A stretch of 64,000 nt of DNA, from the NCBI GenBank assembly GCA_002282385.1, contig NCJG01000007.1, forward strand, positions 1 through 64,000. Direction: 5' to 3'. The translations under genes and the position numbers were made by a program. The DNA comes from Sphingomonadales bacterium 39-57-19. Lineage in GTDB: Bacteria; Pseudomonadota; Alphaproteobacteria; Sphingomonadales; Sphingomonadaceae. Under the pieces are notes generated by a model. That model made no database searches. It saw only the letters and a list, made by a program, of their open reading frames with translations, and was not told the origin of the DNA. Numbering within the stretch: the stretch's first letter is position 1; every line of letters begins with the position of its first letter. Positions 4,236-46,013 of this stretch are shown one piece after another.

Positions 4236-4310
4236 TGGTGACCCCTACGGGAATCGAACCCGTGTTTCAGCCGTGAAAGGGCCGCGTCCTAACCGCTAGA
4301 CGAAGGGGCC
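4236..4310 (-). tRNA. tRNA-Glu (anticodon TTC)
   Basis: Read on the minus strand, the sequence folds as a complete 75-nt tRNA. The acceptor stem GGCCCCT pairs with AGGGGTC, followed by A and an encoded CCA. The D arm contains TAGCGGTTAGGA. The anticodon loop is CTTTCAC with anticodon TTC, and the T arm has GGTTCGATTCC. The 3' end (4236) faces the AT-rich accessory stretch 1-4235 and the 5' end faces recJ. tRNA 3' ends are common integrase targets, so this may be the attachment site of the remnant island. Confidence 0.97.
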
Positions 4311-39852: not shown

Positions 39853-39873
39853 GCACGCGGTATATTGGGGGAA

Positions 39874-41058
39874 ATGATGCGTAAGAAATTCTTGATTCCA
39901 CTGACGCTGATTGGTGCGGCTGCGATTGGCTTTTTCGGCTTTTTACCCGGCTATGTCGAAGGTTCGATGAACGCGGTGGACGGCCAACCGCTGATCAAGG
40001 TCAGCGATGAGGCCAAGGTATTGCACAAGACATTGAACATCGTCGACCTGCATAGCGACACGCTGATGTGGAACCGCGATTTGGGCGACCGGGCGGACCG
40101 TGGCCATATGGATTTGCCGCGCTTGCAAGAGGGCAATGTCGCGCTTCAGCTTTTCTCGTCGGTCACCAAAACGCCCAAAGGCCAAAATTATGACGGCAAT
40201 GGCGCGGACACCGATAATATCACTTTGCTGACCTTCGCGCAGTTGCAGCCGGTGAAAACATGGCGCTCATTGGTGGAGCGGTCGCTGTATCACGCATCGA
40301 AGCGCGACCATGCGGTCAGCGGGTCGGATGGAAAATTGCAAGCCGTGGACAAGGCGCAGCAGCTTGATGCCTTGCTTGCCGCACGGCAAAAGGACCGGAG
40401 CACCGTTGGCGCCATGCTGACCATTGAAGGGCTCCATAATCTTGAAGGCAAGGCCGAGAATCTCGACCGTCTGTACGACGCCGGGTTCCGCATGGCGGGG
40501 TTCACGCATTTCTTTGACAATGAATTGGGCGGGTCGATGCACGGCCTGAAAAAAGGCGGACTGACGCCGTTTGGTCGCGACATATTGCGCCGGATGGAGG
40601 CGAAGGGAATGATCGTCGACATCGCGCATCTCAGCCATGCTGGCGTTGCCGAGGTTTTGGCCATGGCGAAGCGTCCCGTGGTCTCCAGCCATGGCGGCGT
40701 GCAAGCGACGTGCAAGGTGAACCGCAACCTGACCGATGACGAAGTACGCGGCGTCGCCAAAACTGGCGGCATCATTGGCATCGGCTATTGGGAGGGCGCA
40801 ATATGCTCCACCGATCCGCGGGCTGCGGCCAAGGCAATGAAGCATGTGCGCGATCTCGTTGGCATCCAACATGTTGCTTTGGGATCGGACTATGATGGCG
40901 CGACCACCGTGCGTTTCGATACGTCGCAACTCGCGCAAGTTACCCAAGCGTTGATGGACGAGGGTTTCACGCCAGACGAAATTCGCGCCGTCATGGGTGA
41001 AAACGCATTGCGCGTCATCCGTGCTGGCTTGGTACCGATGGCGAATGTTGCGCAATAA
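39874..41058 (+). CDS. Membrane dipeptidase (M19 family)
   Basis: A 394-residue zinc dipeptidase of the renal-dipeptidase family with an N-terminal membrane anchor or signal (FLIPLTLIGAAAIGFFGFLPG). The metal-binding HxD is in VDLHSDTLMWNRD, the bridging Glu in MLTIEGLHNL, and later His residues in DIAHLSHAG and VVSSHGG. The C-terminal ALGSDYDGATTVRFDTS is also typical. It would hydrolyse dipeptides in the periplasm. GGGGGAA precedes the two candidate ATG codons, 39874 and 39877. Confidence 0.92.
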   Translation: MMRKKFLIPLTLIGAAAIGFFGFLPGYVEGSMNAVDGQPLIKVSDEAKVLHKTLNIVDLHSDTLMWNRDLGDRADRGHMDLPRLQEGNVALQLFSSVTKTPKGQNYDGNGADTDNITLLTFAQLQPVKTWRSLVERSLYHASKRDHAVSGSDGKLQAVDKAQQLDALLAARQKDRSTVGAMLTIEGLHNLEGKAENLDRLYDAGFRMAGFTHFFDNELGGSMHGLKKGGLTPFGRDILRRMEAKGMIVDIAHLSHAGVAEVLAMAKRPVVSSHGGVQATCKVNRNLTDDEVRGVAKTGGIIGIGYWEGAICSTDPRAAAKAMKHVRDLVGIQHVALGSDYDGATTVRFDTSQLAQVTQALMDEGFTPDEIRAVMGENALRVIRAGLVPMANVAQ

Positions 41059-41074
41059 TGATGTTTCGGTTGAA

Positions 41075-41189
41075 CCGTAGCCCTGAGCAGCGGCCGCGAA
41101 GCGGCAGCGTCCGTCGAAGGGCGGCCATGAGCGGAAAGGCGCCCTTCGACTTTCGACAGTGCGATCGCACTGTCGGCTCAGGGCTACGG
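41075..41189. repeat. 115-bp structured palindromic repeat upstream of ribF
   Basis: The element has perfect 14-bp outer arms (CCGTAGCCCTGAGC and its complement at 41176-41189). An inner inverted pair GTCGAAGGGCG/CGCCCTTCGAC lies at 41113-41123 and 41140-41150, and a 22-bp perfect palindrome at 41154-41175. The outer arms and the CGCCCTTCGAC core also occur in the repeat inside ileS. It is a REP/MITE-like intergenic element. Confidence 0.85.
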
Positions 41190-41216
41190 TGAACTTGACA
41201 TTACGGTGACATTGAT

Positions 41217-42149
41217 ATGACCATTCCCCGCCTTTCTGCCAAAGACCGGACGCCTGACGCATTGCGCGGCGGTGTTGTTGCCTTGGGCAATTTTGATGGC
41301 TTTCATTTGGGGCATCAGGCCGTTGCTGGCGCAGCGATAAAGCAGGCTAAGGCGGCAGGTAACCCCGCGATTATCGCAACATTTGATCCGCATCCCGTGC
41401 GCTTTTTTGCGCCGGAATCGCCCTGGTTCCGCCTGACGACGCTCGATCAACGGCAGCGACTTTTTGCCGAAGCCGGTGCCGACGCAATGGTGGTGTTTGA
41501 TTTCGATGCAGAGCTTGCGGCGACCAGTGCCGAAGATTTCATCGTCACATTGCTGATGGAACGTTTGGGCATTTCGGCGGTGGTCACGGGTGAGGACTTT
41601 ACCTTTGGGCATAAGCGCGGCGGCAATATTGACGTGTTGCGCGATTTGGGCGGTGCGCATGGCCTGACGTCGACCGCCATGGGGCCAGTGGTCGATGATG
41701 GCGGCGTGATATCGTCGAGCCGCATCCGCAATGCGCTAAAGGATGGCGATTGCGCCACGGCCACCGCCTTGCTCACCCGGCCGTTCACGGTTGAGGGCAT
41801 TGTGCAGCATGGCGATAAAAACGGGCGGCTATTGGGTTTCCCGACCGCCAATATCGACATGGGCCATTATTTGCGCCCGCGGTACGGCATTTATGCGGTG
41901 AAGGGCCGCTTGCCCGATGGCCGCGTGCTCAATGGTGCCGCAAACCTTGGTATCCGCCCAACGTTCGACCCGCCCAAGGAATTGCTTGAGCCGCATTTCT
42001 TCGACTTTGCCGAAGATCTGTATGGGCAGAATATCGAAATCGAATTCCACGCCTTCATTCGCGGAGAGGCGAAGTTTGACAGTCTCGACGCACTGATGGC
42101 GCAAATGGCGCAGGATTGCGACGAAGCCCGCCGGATATTGGGGGCGTAG
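41217..42149 (+). CDS. ribF: Bifunctional riboflavin kinase/FAD synthetase
   Basis: A 310-residue enzyme that phosphorylates riboflavin to FMN and adenylates it to FAD. The N-terminal nucleotidyltransferase domain has GNFDGFHLGHQAV and GEDFTFGHKRGGN. The C-terminal riboflavin kinase domain has HGDKNGRLLGFPTANID (Mg/ATP loop) and GAANLGIRPTF. It precedes ileS-lspA in the same orientation, a common order in proteobacteria, but is separated from ileS by a repeat-containing 218-bp gap. Confidence 0.96.
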   Translation: MTIPRLSAKDRTPDALRGGVVALGNFDGFHLGHQAVAGAAIKQAKAAGNPAIIATFDPHPVRFFAPESPWFRLTTLDQRQRLFAEAGADAMVVFDFDAELAATSAEDFIVTLLMERLGISAVVTGEDFTFGHKRGGNIDVLRDLGGAHGLTSTAMGPVVDDGGVISSSRIRNALKDGDCATATALLTRPFTVEGIVQHGDKNGRLLGFPTANIDMGHYLRPRYGIYAVKGRLPDGRVLNGAANLGIRPTFDPPKELLEPHFFDFAEDLYGQNIEIEFHAFIRGEAKFDSLDALMAQMAQDCDEARRILGA

Positions 42150-42183
42150 TGGGCGGAGCGATAAACCATCGCTTCCTCGGCTT

Positions 42184-42262
42184 CGTCACCCTGAACTTGT
42201 TTCAGGGTCTTAATTCCGGACCGTTTGAAAAAGTAAGATGCTGAAACAAGTTCAGCATGACG
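42184..42262. repeat. Paired inverted repeats between ribF and ileS
   Basis: ACCCTGAACTTGTTTCAGGG at 42187-42206 and TGCTGAAACAAGTTCAGCA at 42239-42257 are each imperfect hairpins. Their 15-nt cores (CTGAACTTGTTTCAG and CTGAAACAAGTTCAG) are exact reverse complements of each other. The whole can fold as one large cruciform. This type of element is frequent in sphingomonad intergenic DNA and carries no coding sequence. Confidence 0.85.
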
Positions 42263-42367
42263 GTGTAAGATACATCTTTCCAAACCATCGCCACATGAAG
42301 CGGTGCGTGTAACAGCGCGGATACAGGCTTTATTTGCAGCGCCATATCCTTTAGGCACCCGCACAAC

Positions 42368-45208
42368 ATGACTGACCCTATCGACTATCGCGACACCGTT
42401 TTCCTGCCGAAAACAGATTTCCCTATGAAGGCCGGCCTTCCGCAGAAGGAGCCGGGCATTCTCGCGCGTTGGCAGGCGCAGGATTTTTATGCGGAGCTGC
42501 GCAATCGCCGTCGCGGGCGTGAGAAGTTCATTCTGCATGACGGCCCGCCTTATGCGAATGGCGACATGCATATCGGCCATGCGCTGAACCACATTCTGAA
42601 GGACATGGTCGTCCGCACGCAGACATTGTTGGGCAAAGACGCGCCTTATGTGCCCGGTTGGGATTGCCACGGCCTGCCCATCGAGTGGAAGGTCGAAGAG
42701 CAATATCGCAAGAAAAAGCTCAACAAGGACGAGGTTCCCGCCGTTGAGTTCCGCGCCGAATGCCGCGCTTATGCGCAGCATTGGGTCGACACGCAGCGCG
42801 AACAATTGAAGCGGCTGGGCATCAATGCTGATTGGGACAATCCCTATCTGACGATGGATTTTCAGGCCGAGGCGACCATTGTTTCGGAGCTGTTGAAGTT
42901 CGCCGAAAGCGGCCAGCTGTATCGCGGTGCAAAGCCCGTCATGTGGTCGCCGGTGGAAAAGACCGCCTTGGCCGAAGCTGAAGTCGAATATGAGGACATC
43001 GTATCGACGCAGATCGATGTGGCGTTTGAGATCGTGGAATCGCCGATTGCCGAACTCGTTGGCGCGCATGCGGTGATCTGGACAACGACGCCTTGGACGA
43101 TTCCGGTGAACCAAGCTTTGGCTTACGGCCCTGAAGTTAGCTATTGGCTAGTCACGGTAAATGGTTCCAAAAAATGTCTGGTTGCAGAAGCTTTGGTCGA
43201 TGACTTGGCCAAACGTCTCGGTGATGGTGTGAGCCTGATCGATGTCACTTGGCGCGGCAAAGGCTCCGACCTAGCCGGAACCATGGTCCTTCACCCGATG
43301 CACGAACTGGGCGGTTTCTTTGCTAAGCCGCGTCCGATGCTTGCAGGCGATTTCGTCACCACCGATAGCGGCACCGGCCTTGTCCATATGGCGCCCGACC
43401 ATGGCGAGGATGACTTTGACCTGTGCAAGGCGAACGGCATTGAACCGGTCTTCGCGGTTGAAGGCGACGGCAAATATCGCGCCGATTGGCTCTGGCTCGG
43501 CGGCGAGGGCAGCGTGATCAACCCCAAATTCAACGCGCCCGATGGCCCCATCTGCGCTGCGTTGCACGCGGCTGGCGGATTGCTCGCGGCATCGGCGGAT
43601 TATAAGCACAGCTATCCGCACAGCTGGCGGTCAAAGGCGAAAGTCATCTATCGCTGCACCCCGCAATGGTTCGTGCCGATGGATAAGCCACTCGATCTAA
43701 ACCGTAGTGCTGAGCTTGTCGAAGCACGCGTATCGGACGAGAGCCGCCCTTCGACAGGCTCAGGGCTTCGGTCTTTGAGAGAAACCGCAATGACCGCGAT
43801 TTCGGAAACCCGCTGGGTTCCGGAAAAGGGCCAGAACCGCATTACCGCCATGGTCGAAGGCCGCCCCGATTGGGTGCTGTCTCGCCAGCGCGCATGGGGC
43901 GTGCCGATCACGCTTTTTGTGGATCGTAAGTCCGGCCAATATCTCTGCGACGCGGGCGTGAACGCACGCATCATCGCGGGCATTCGCGAAAATGGCGTCG
44001 ATGGCTGGAGCGACGAACGCGCGCAGGAATATCTGGGCAGCGACTATGCGCTTGCCGATTATGAACGCGTCACCGACATTTTGGACGTCTGGTTTGATTC
44101 CGGCTGCACGCATGCTTTCGTCCTTGAAAGCGGACGTTGGCCCGACCTGCAATGGCCAGCGGACCTTTACCTCGAAGGCAGCGACCAGCATCGTGGCTGG
44201 TTTCAGTCCAGCCTGTTGCAAAGCTGCGGCACGCGGGGCCGTGCGCCGTATAACGCGGTGCTGACCCACGGCTTTACGATGGATCAAAAGGGCATGAAAA
44301 TGTCCAAGTCGCTGGGCAATACGATCAACCCGCTCGACCTGATGCGCGACAGCGGCGCGGATATCTTGCGGCTATGGGCGTTGACCGTGGACTTCACCGA
44401 AGACCACCGGATCGGCAAAGAAATCCTGCAGGGCGTTTCCGACCAATATCGCAAATTGCGCAACACCTTCCGCTATCTGCTCGGCGCGCTCGACGGCTTT
44501 TCGGACGCGGAAAAGGTTGCGGTCGCCGATATGCCCGAGCTGGAGCGTTATATGCTCCATCTGCTCGCGGATATGGACGCGAAGTTGAAGACGGCGGTCA
44601 ATGATTTTGACTTCAACACTTATGTCCGGTTGCTGACCGAGTTTTGCAACGAAGACCTGTCGGCATTCTTCTTCGATATCCGCAAAGATTGCCTCTATTG
44701 CGACGTCGGCGCCAATGCTCCCTTTGGCTCTCCCAAGCGGATGGCGTATCGCACGGTGCTCGACATTTTGTTCCACGCCCTCGTGCGCTATGCCGCGCCT
44801 GTGCTGGTCTTCACCAGCGAAGAGGTGTGGCAGACACGGTTCCCCGATGCCGACAGCGTGCATTTTTCGGATTGGCCGGAGGTTCCCGCCGCCCTTGACG
44901 GGGCCTTGGCTGAAAAATGGTCGAGCATCCGTGCGGCGCGTATGGTCGCAACCGAACAAATCGAACCCATGCGCCGTGAGAAGATTGTCGGTTCCAGCCT
45001 TGAGGTGGAATATACTCACAGCGGAGTGTTCGGCGATGTAGATCTTGCCGAAATATTCATCGTCTCGGCTGTCCATCACGGCGATAGCGCTGGCGCAGTC
45101 AAAACGACCAACCACAAATGCGGCCGTTGCTGGCGGCATCTGCCCGAGGTTGTCGACGATGGCGCGTTGTGCGACAGATGCGATACTGTTGTGAACGGAA
45201 ACGCATGA
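42368..45208 (+). CDS. ileS: Isoleucyl-tRNA synthetase (with repeat-derived insertion)
   Basis: A 946-residue class I aminoacyl-tRNA synthetase that charges tRNA-Ile. It has the HIGH motif (ANGDMHIGHALNH, near residue 68), an editing domain with WTTTPWTIPVNQALA, the KMSKS motif (GMKMSKSLGN, near 643), and a C-terminal zinc finger (CGRCW...CDRC). About residues 445-470 (DLNRSAELVEARVSDESRPS) are encoded by a palindromic repeat and replace the short linker normally found between FVPMDKPL and LRETAMTAI. The frame is kept, so the enzyme is probably functional with a surface loop added. Its stop overlaps lspA (ATGA). Confidence 0.95.
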   Translation: MTDPIDYRDTVFLPKTDFPMKAGLPQKEPGILARWQAQDFYAELRNRRRGREKFILHDGPPYANGDMHIGHALNHILKDMVVRTQTLLGKDAPYVPGWDCHGLPIEWKVEEQYRKKKLNKDEVPAVEFRAECRAYAQHWVDTQREQLKRLGINADWDNPYLTMDFQAEATIVSELLKFAESGQLYRGAKPVMWSPVEKTALAEAEVEYEDIVSTQIDVAFEIVESPIAELVGAHAVIWTTTPWTIPVNQALAYGPEVSYWLVTVNGSKKCLVAEALVDDLAKRLGDGVSLIDVTWRGKGSDLAGTMVLHPMHELGGFFAKPRPMLAGDFVTTDSGTGLVHMAPDHGEDDFDLCKANGIEPVFAVEGDGKYRADWLWLGGEGSVINPKFNAPDGPICAALHAAGGLLAASADYKHSYPHSWRSKAKVIYRCTPQWFVPMDKPLDLNRSAELVEARVSDESRPSTGSGLRSLRETAMTAISETRWVPEKGQNRITAMVEGRPDWVLSRQRAWGVPITLFVDRKSGQYLCDAGVNARIIAGIRENGVDGWSDERAQEYLGSDYALADYERVTDILDVWFDSGCTHAFVLESGRWPDLQWPADLYLEGSDQHRGWFQSSLLQSCGTRGRAPYNAVLTHGFTMDQKGMKMSKSLGNTINPLDLMRDSGADILRLWALTVDFTEDHRIGKEILQGVSDQYRKLRNTFRYLLGALDGFSDAEKVAVADMPELERYMLHLLADMDAKLKTAVNDFDFNTYVRLLTEFCNEDLSAFFFDIRKDCLYCDVGANAPFGSPKRMAYRTVLDILFHALVRYAAPVLVFTSEEVWQTRFPDADSVHFSDWPEVPAALDGALAEKWSSIRAARMVATEQIEPMRREKIVGSSLEVEYTHSGVFGDVDLAEIFIVSAVHHGDSAGAVKTTNHKCGRCWRHLPEVVDDGALCDRCDTVVNGNA
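43702..43771. repeat. Palindromic repeat inserted in frame within ileS
   Basis: Two 23-bp arms (43702-43724 and 43749-43771) are imperfect inverted repeats, with 19 of 23 positions matching, around a 24-bp centre. The arms share CCGTAG, CTGAGC and TCGAAG with the intergenic element at 41075-41189. The element adds no stop codon and keeps the ileS frame, giving the peptide NRSAELVEA...RPSTGSG. Confidence 0.85.
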
Positions 45209-45753
45209 ACCCCAATTCCAAATTCCGCCTTCAGGGCATCATGCTGGCAAGCCTTGTGTTCATCGCGGACCAGATCGTGAAATATGCGATGCTTGGCCCG
45301 CTTCAGCTGAAAAGCCGCGGTGTCATTCACATCATTTCGTTCTTCGACCTGCGCTATGCCGAAAATCGCGGCGTTTCGATGAGCTTTCTGACGGCGGATA
45401 GCGATAGCGAACGCTGGGCATTGGTGGCGCTGACGGCGGTTATTGCCGCGGGTGTTGCCGTCTGGATGTGGCGTGAGAAACTGCGCGGTGATGTGCTGGC
45501 CTTGTCGCTCGTTTTGGGCGGCGCGCTTGGCAATATCGTGGACCGCGTGCGCTATGGCTATGTCGTCGATTATGCCGATTTGCACTTTGGCGCATTCCGG
45601 CCCTTTTACATATTCAACCTTGCCGATGCCTGCATCAGCATTGGCGTGCTGATATTGCTTGCCCGCGCCTTCCTGATAAGCGACAAGCAAGCGGTACGCG
45701 GGACTGACGTTCAGCAACCCGAAAGCAGCGCTGACATAGTGGAGAAATCATGA
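45205..45753 (+). CDS. lspA: Lipoprotein signal peptidase
   Basis: A 182-residue inner-membrane aspartic protease (signal peptidase II) that cleaves prolipoprotein signal peptides. Catalytic Asp residues are visible in GGALGNIVDRVRYGYVVDY and YIFNLADACISIG. Four membrane helices are expected. The start at 45205 overlaps the ileS stop (ATGA), so the longer upstream frame is rejected. Two lipoproteins follow directly. Confidence 0.96.
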   Translation: MNPNSKFRLQGIMLASLVFIADQIVKYAMLGPLQLKSRGVIHIISFFDLRYAENRGVSMSFLTADSDSERWALVALTAVIAAGVAVWMWREKLRGDVLALSLVLGGALGNIVDRVRYGYVVDYADLHFGAFRPFYIFNLADACISIGVLILLARAFLISDKQAVRGTDVQQPESSADIVEKS

Positions 45754-46013
45754 AGCGGATCAATATGTTTGCGGCGGCGTCAGTTGCTTTTCTCGCGCTT
45801 TCGGGCTGCGGCACCACCAGCGTGTTTGACCGTGACCGGCCAGATGAATTTGCCGTAAGCCGGTCAAAGCCGCTTCAGGTTCCGGCCGAATTTGCTTTGC
45901 CCGCGCCGACACCCGATGCGCCGCGCCCGCAAGATAGCGATACGAAGCAACAGGTTTTGGACGCTATGTTCGGCGGCGCTGTACCTGCGCCCCGTCCGCA
46001 GTCTGCCCAGTAA
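45750..46013 (+). CDS. DUF3035-type small lipoprotein (copy 1)
   Basis: An 87-residue lipoprotein (lipobox LALSGC). After a short linker it carries the DUF3035-like pattern SRSKPLQVPAEFALPAP and QQVLDAMFGG. It overlaps lspA by four bases and precedes a paralogue of the same pattern. DUF3035 proteins are small, probably outer-membrane lipoproteins found after lspA in alphaproteobacteria. Function is unknown. Confidence 0.85.
   Translation: MKRINMFAAASVAFLALSGCGTTSVFDRDRPDEFAVSRSKPLQVPAEFALPAPTPDAPRPQDSDTKQQVLDAMFGGAVPAPRPQSAQ

Follow-up and report, generated by a model that had tools for sequence, protein, structure and literature searches.

How does a palindromic repeat come to be read as part of a tRNA synthetase, and why should one loop of that enzyme hold it? 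The question is raised by ileS, which encodes isoleucyl-tRNA synthetase (IleS), an enzyme required for protein synthesis, in a window of 64,000 nucleotides (nt) from Sphingomonadales bacterium 39-57-19 (assembly GCA_002282385.1, contig NCJG01000007.1, positions 1 to 64,000). The initial annotation of this window claimed an in-frame, stop-free palindromic repeat in ileS. The repeat is indeed there, and it is one base longer at either end than the 43702-43771 first proposed (Table 1). We consider it to be a copy of a dispersed family that was likely inserted into ileS and is probably tolerated as a protein loop; permissive loops of this kind are, in our reading, filled repeatedly and independently. 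We give this reading a probability of about 80%.

The loop concerned, codons 441-467, was read in 85 ileS genes of Sphingomonadales. These comprise 44 genes of an 80-locus set, assigned to the order by record title or, for a few vaguely titled records, by similarity, and 41 loci of the genus; four pairs are identical outside the loop, all eight with short loops, which leaves 81 distinct genes. DNA folding and reading divide the 85 loops into 31 palindromic ones, 33 short ones, and 21 that are long but lack a palindrome. The palindromic loops belong to the family of the window element, here called F1 (CTGAGCYTGTCGAAG; 11 loops), to F2 (GGGAGGGG type; 17 loops), to F3 (two loops, L043 and L123, which resemble the CGTC class of repetitive extragenic palindromic (REP) sequences by eye only), and to F4 (one loop). 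At least three of these families are dissimilar, and they are read in several frames. The loop peptides vary with the family, such as SPLPFRGGAGGG..PHPNPSPEGEG, PSRLREG..PPASGRG, and VMPAKAGIS..PASAGVT. The length of segment 436-470 has a standard deviation of 18.2 residues in the 85 genes, compared with 3.5 residues in 36 more distant IleS, which make up the rest of the 80-locus set. An automatic scan, conservative in that it missed the window's own element, detected inverted repeats within 20 of the 85 ileS genes and within one of the 36 distant ones, there at an unrelated position.

A phylogenetic tree of ileS was used to count how often the loop has changed. It holds 91 rows (the 85 genes and 6 of the 36 distant loci) and 898 columns with the loop removed, and was computed quickly under LG+G4 without bootstrap. 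All labels together need 33 changes on this tree, and none of 200 shuffles was as low. If only well supported branches are counted, F2 still requires at least 13 changes, F1 at least 8, and F3 at least 2. The tree thus needs many separate changes, and at the level of sequence unrelated repeats appear to have hit the same IleS loop repeatedly.

The scan places IleS palindromes at two further sites (Table 1), and L117 and L094 have one odd match each. In L130, from genome G026, a 105-nt element is present twice, at sites 1 and 2, and the two copies agree at 102 of 105 positions; elsewhere in G026, full-length copies reach at most 84% identity. Two other proteins have comparable places. For UvrA, 45 genomes were matched and 30 loci examined; one loop carries F1 in L191, L192, L193, and L197 and F2 in L205, L216, and L219; in L207 it has a palindrome-like insert of another kind. 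The inserts of L191 to L193 are probably one event. L192 comes from G023, a genome with the uvrA insert and no ileS insert. For GlyS, 31 loci were examined; in L221, L225, and L179 an F2 insert replaces a short turn such as HDRDGK. Gene inserts were also sampled from 30 of the 93 F1 places in G030 and 15 of the 62 F2 places in G006. Two genes of G030 contain F1, one for PrmC and one for an SMC-like coiled-coil protein, the latter with a Pfam score below the cut-off.

The 21 long loops without a palindrome invite another explanation, a single ancient insertion at the base of Sphingomonadales whose later repeats were swapped by ectopic gene conversion with intergenic copies. Some of these loops are conserved within clades (..KRWEGEGGAINPAEE..), as a decayed old insert would be, the flanks of inserts are replaced rather than split, and no transposase would be required. 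However, the 33 short loops also lie beside occupied ones, GlyS and UvrA repeat the pattern and are mostly empty (28 of 31, all short, and 22 of 30), and F1, F2, and F3 have no obvious common arms, by eye, through which conversion could proceed. We regard this history as rather unlikely. As a separate observation, a conserved non-palindromic loop (..PK..E.RWE.EGGAI(N/D)P..E..) occupies the invaded site in L025, L026, L027, L030, L049, L052, L063, and L067, all of them Novosphingobium, Sphingopyxis, or Erythrobacter-like records; a repeat inserted long ago may have decayed into this sequence.

In the window itself, the stop-free repeat measures exactly 24 codons and begins at codon position 2. 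Nucleotides 43697-43780 (84 nt) fold as RNA at -43.8 kcal/mol (z -4.72), a value that none of 200 dinucleotide shuffles equalled. The GTAG tag is present in the left arm (CCGTAG) and changed in the right (CCGAAG). The arms were also said to be shared with an intergenic repeat upstream, and this holds for a copy of 117 nt (Table 1): the two have ACCGTAG..CTGAGC / GCTCAGGGCTACGGT and CCCTTCGAC in common, and the intergenic copy has CCGTAG at both ends, outer arms like those of the ileS element, and a different interior. The fold of 41071-41195, around this copy, has a z of -9.21. Rfam contains no family that fits the element: on 40500-45800 three matches to two families were obtained up to an E of 1, all far below the gathering score, and at gathering scores the whole window yields only a tRNA at 4239-4310. 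In the window, a loose core pattern with three mismatches gave four matches (1.44 expected) and a loose CCGTAG pattern seven (3.71 expected); the former is near chance apart from the two ileS sites, and the latter is likewise near chance.

Table 1. Coordinates in the window of the ileS repeat, its host gene, related features, and the invaded IleS sites
Feature	Position	Strand	Remarks
ileS, isoleucyl-tRNA synthetase, host gene of the insert	42368..45208	+	946 aa; open reading frame, Pfam tRNA-synt_1 (E 1.5e-127), PDB homologues
Family F1 palindromic repeat, 72 nt, ACCGTAG...CTTCGGT, in frame	43701..43772	+	encodes most of NRSAELVEARVSDESRPSTGSGLRS
Left REP-like arm	43702..43726	+	CCGTAG tag + TGCTGAGCTTGTCGAAGCA
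Right REP-like arm, inverted	43746..43771	-	CCGAAG (changed tag) + CCCTGAGCCTGTCGAAGGG
Related palindromic repeat, 117 nt	41074..41190	.	between genes 39865-41058 and 41217-42149
IleS site 1, codons 313-316	43304..43315	+	empty in the window; palindromes in L024, L033, L048, L129, L130
IleS site 2, recurrently invaded loop, codons 441-467	43688..43768	+	between strand 433-436 and helix 470-480; predicted local distance difference test (pLDDT) score < 50 at 448-465
IleS site 3, codons 840-846	44885..44905	+	empty in the window; palindromes in L023, L024, L130, L132

A second palindromic family (CTGAACTTGTTTCAG / CTGAAACAAGTTCAG pair) lies at 42191-42255, between gene 41217-42149 and ileS. The glyS of G006 (L156) translates a sequence that resembles it at about residues 640-675 (HPELVSGS..LKQVQHDG), and this segment has matches at many places outside glyS across the genus.

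Comparison with other IleS proteins shows where the extra residues begin and end. In three PDB alignments the match stops at window residue 437-440 and restarts at 467-468, on the adjacent residues 414/415 of 8c9e, so the window segment is an insertion relative to other IleS. Among the best 120 of 7997 proteins, taken as the close set, the window allele is found in 24 and another repeat in five (P0026, read by eye, and P0054, P0070, P0104, and P0109, found by script); the remaining 91 have a short loop by reading, including P0103, which was mis-anchored and read by eye. Within the genus, the loop was read in 41 of 45 genomes (G001, G012, G020, and G036 were left out), and five carry the allele: the window, L101, L103, L117, and L127. 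L101, L103, and L117 share the 72 nt without a difference, and L127 differs at four positions (68 of 72 identical). These four loci are scattered among empty genes on the tree. The ileS of L102 (G023) is 97% identical to that of the window yet empty, while that of L101 is 98% identical and filled. The flanks differ as well, KPLDLN..RSLRETAM in filled genes and KATTDGTLREKAM in empty relatives, so filled and empty genes are not a simple cut-and-fill pair; a clean empty site that matches the window copy was found in none of the aligned ileS of relatives. The allele may, tentatively, have spread between related genomes by homologous recombination.

As judged from these alignments, the window insert is neither private nor a clean recent insertion. 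The initial annotation had proposed a recent insertion by a mobile family. Several close relatives do lack the segment, and the repeat is dispersed in its own genome (15 core matches at 12 places), so neither comparison refutes the proposal. Its recency is only partly sustained: the segment is absent from some of the nearest relatives, but 24 of the 120 close proteins share the allele and the flanking codons differ from those of empty relatives. Mobility fits the dispersed copies and is presumed from them, but the transposase search of the genome was empty.

That the repeat might be an assembly artefact or a chimera has next to no probability. Several genus genomes are fragmented, with up to 580 contigs, and probably metagenome-assembled, and the ileS of G016 contains a 25-bp perfect inverted repeat at a frame break. 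However, several sources contribute to the 24 proteins with this allele, five genus genomes carry it too, and records titled as named strains have other loop repeats, such as L039 of Sphingomonas pokkalii and L055 of S. jeddahensis. The inverted repeat of G016, near residues 96-106 of L117, is itself probably an assembly error, although it could be an out-of-frame insertion.

The genome that contains the window has 2,310,959 bases in 20 contigs. Its 15 exact matches to the core CTGAGCNTGTCGAAG reduce to 12 places once paired cores are merged, and a reversed-pattern control gave none. Two of the 12 places are in conserved genes, ileS and, with half an element, uvrA (NADSRPSTGSGLTVEG); the other ten were judged by open reading frames (ORFs) alone. 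Full or partial matches to the window element occur in 35 of 45 genus genomes, and its own genome has 14 such matches (including itself). The repeat is a discrete unit, matched from end to end (1-72) at many loci, for instance in G030, G007, G034, and G021, with 88-89% identity at best. Four 14-base strings of the core found no match in the paper texts searched. Three near-core matches in coding sequence (L016, L017, and L018) appear to have arisen by chance. At L171, L183, and L188, ORFs that run over repeats were rejected as genes, the first for lack of a Pfam family and the other two by eye. F1 dimers (L001-L012, L165-L190) often have an A-rich AAACCG before them and GTTT after them, which are either ends of a longer element or a target preference.

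These properties also serve to classify the repeat. F1 consists of short stem-loop units in inverted pairs with many, mainly intergenic copies, as GTAG-type REP dimers do; the intergenic share is an ORF reading of the 12 places. The window element has no CGTC tag and is thus not a CGTC-type REP. Miniature inverted-repeat transposable elements (MITEs) have terminal inverted repeats and a target-site duplication; inverted ends are present here, and a duplication is not obvious by eye in the listed F1 flanks. Copies in frame in ileS and uvrA, and others outside genes by ORF reading, form the combination seen in Rickettsia palindromic elements (RPEs).

The A-rich sequence before many F1 copies could also be taken as a sign that the moving machinery recognises DNA sequence or structure in ileS, glyS, and uvrA, which would then be true hot spots. 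Dissimilar families in the same short interval and one GlyS turn used in three genomes would fit such a choice. But three separate IleS sites and other genes are used, the position within the loop differs between genomes, and most sampled copies lie outside genes; in G006 this is true of 14 of the 15 sampled F2 places (ORF test), several of them clustered. We therefore give target choice a small chance.

Survival in permissive loops is the simplest account of why this loop is occupied. The AlphaFold2 model of the window IleS (50-row alignment) has a mean pLDDT of 87.3; besides the region given in Table 1, residues 194-205 and 419-422 also fall below 50. Four of the six frames of the window element are open, as are all six of the F2 core. 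Such repeats are thus easily read through. The stock of repeats in the genome also appears to matter. Genomes with an F1 loop have 4-20 F1 cores elsewhere, more than the others (one-sided p 0.0075), and those with an F2 loop have 15-60 F2 sites elsewhere, again more than the others (one-sided p 0.0003; both for 41 genomes, with kinship uncorrected). The repeat in the loop tends to come from a family that is abundant in that genome. As a side observation, in-gene F1 copies (window, L129, L136, L137, L197, and L169, in IleS, UvrA, and PrmC) are by eye mostly read in the hydrophilic frame ELVE/EPVE .. STGS/STSS and seldom as LSLSK or LRQAQ, though that frame is open too. This bias hints at selection on the peptide.

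Selection could go further and keep a co-opted peptide or mRNA hairpin, one that, say, pauses translation and so helps the multi-domain synthetase to fold. The hairpin is strong, the occupied loop lies between structural elements, and three other genomes have the 72-nt allele in unchanged form. But 91 of the 120 close proteins do without any insert by reading, and the identity, frame, and length of the repeat vary freely; co-option is very unlikely.

Several findings weigh against recurrent insertion into permissive loops. Long loops without a palindrome make up 21 of the 85, and L036, L044, and L056, among the 11 F1 loops, are variants assigned by reading. Taken singly, the F2 and F1 labels show no more clustering on the tree than shuffled labels do: of 500 shuffles, 343 and 165, respectively, were as low. 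A change can be a gain or a loss, the count could be inflated by recombination within ileS, and it is a quick tree without bootstrap that stands behind it. In L103, L117, and L127, blocks of ileS fall to 42-78% identity, and the same blocks are low in empty relatives, L105 and L135 among them. Because these blocks vary there too, they argue little for recombination of the allele. F1 is missing from this loop in G018, G030, and G007, which have 86, 93, and 47 F1 cores, so occupation cannot be predicted from copy number alone. Often the insert takes the place of the original turn (HDRDGK in GlyS, KATTDGT in IleS) instead of adding to it, and simple insertion does not account for such cases. Finally, the Y1 transposase of the REP-associated tyrosine transposase (RAYT) type (PF01797) has no match in the genome of the window and is matched in just 4 of the 45 genus genomes (one of 34 of high quality), with none in the F1-richest G018 and G030. 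With no Y1_Tnp gene in its genome, the element is not supported as a RAYT-mobilised REP or REPtron. The repeats are nevertheless probably mobile, as their dispersed copies suggest. Loss of the mover from the genome is one of several options, as is the origin of copies by recombination or template switching.

With these points considered, insertion followed by survival in permissive loops can be outlined as follows. The 72 bases would have been inserted into ileS by some copying process, and their predicted translation product is a disordered loop at the protein surface, probably tolerated by the enzyme. The initial annotation had likewise proposed tolerance as coding sequence, and at the sequence level this agrees with our results. 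REP-like repeats of Sphingomonadales would land in many places, and in-gene copies would persist only where a permissive protein loop coincides with an open frame of suitable length. Candidates for such places are IleS 441-467, two more IleS loops, a loop of UvrA, and a turn of GlyS; being permissive, they would be filled repeatedly and independently. A bolder view, which we hold possible but speculative, is that these loops are standing docking sites which unrelated palindromes enter, swap, and leave. It would then be the exchange of mobile DNA, and not point change, that drives the evolution of surface loops in core enzymes, with old inserts decaying into ordinary lineage-specific sequence.

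Such loops amount to a natural, replicated insertion-scanning experiment in housekeeping enzymes, with the same loop filled many times, in known frames, by repeats that are dissimilar. Counting can thereby address whether the sites are chosen by the repeats or the survivors by selection, and how non-coding repeats become protein. There is also a practical use in annotation. Where unrelated proteins contain peptides such as SRPSTGSG, PSPxGEG, or HPELVSGS, these are translated repeats that give rise to spurious similarity; the repeat residues of a GlyS query, for example, were matched inside uvrA of G026, G040, and G001 and at many other places outside glyS.

Palindromic repeats inside protein genes are known from Rickettsia, and the parallel drawn in the initial annotation is apt. 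According to passages that cite Ogata et al. (PMC6649704, PMC10969869), RPEs are about 150 bp long, form palindromic families, lie in frame in unrelated genes, and are presumed to be compatible with protein function. The present element, likened to them by description and without sequence comparison, differs in its Sphingomonadales host and its length of 72 nt, and here one homologous loop is occupied repeatedly by dissimilar families. Long inverted repeats inside translated genes are also described for nematomorph mitochondria in the part of PMC6649704 that treats them; those have perfect arms that both encode conserved residues, whereas the segment studied here is absent in many relatives.

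REP sequences offer another close likeness. A 2013 survey describes in its main text intragenic REPs with GTAG or CGTC tags, single units as well as dimers, from many bacteria; they often amount to 20-30 aa, and their host genes include several uvrA genes and tRNA synthetases of 'E. lithoralis' and 'S. alaskensis' (PMC3733652). The CCGTAG tag and the inverted REP-like arms of the window element resemble such intragenic GTAG REPs; F2 was matched to neither of the two tag classes. We take the two species names to mean the Sphingomonadales Erythrobacter litoralis and Sphingopyxis alaskensis. The word 'isoleucyl' is absent from the main text of the survey, to which this check was confined; the supplementary gene list lay outside it, so the synthetases may include IleS. 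The excerpts of the REP/RAYT and REPIN literature (PMC2817692, PMC3116915) describe a GTAG tag, inverted pairs, and dispersed, mainly intergenic copies as found here, and a Coxiella REP, GTAGGTTGGGCTGAGCTTGCGAAGCCCAAC, resembles the window arm by eye. The difference lies in the Y1 tyrosine transposase, of which there is none in the genome of the window and few in the genus.

It is therefore established that RPEs occur in Rickettsia genes and REPs in genes of other bacteria, in general terms including tRNA synthetases of Sphingomonadales. Titles and abstracts, with subscription papers mostly outside the scope, contained no report of recurrent invasion of the same IleS loop by unrelated families. 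The main text of the REP survey describes insertion at about the same site only for Xanthomonas recB and otherwise at different sites (PMC3733652). Compared with these systems, the repeated occupation of one homologous loop by unrelated repeat families appears to be new.

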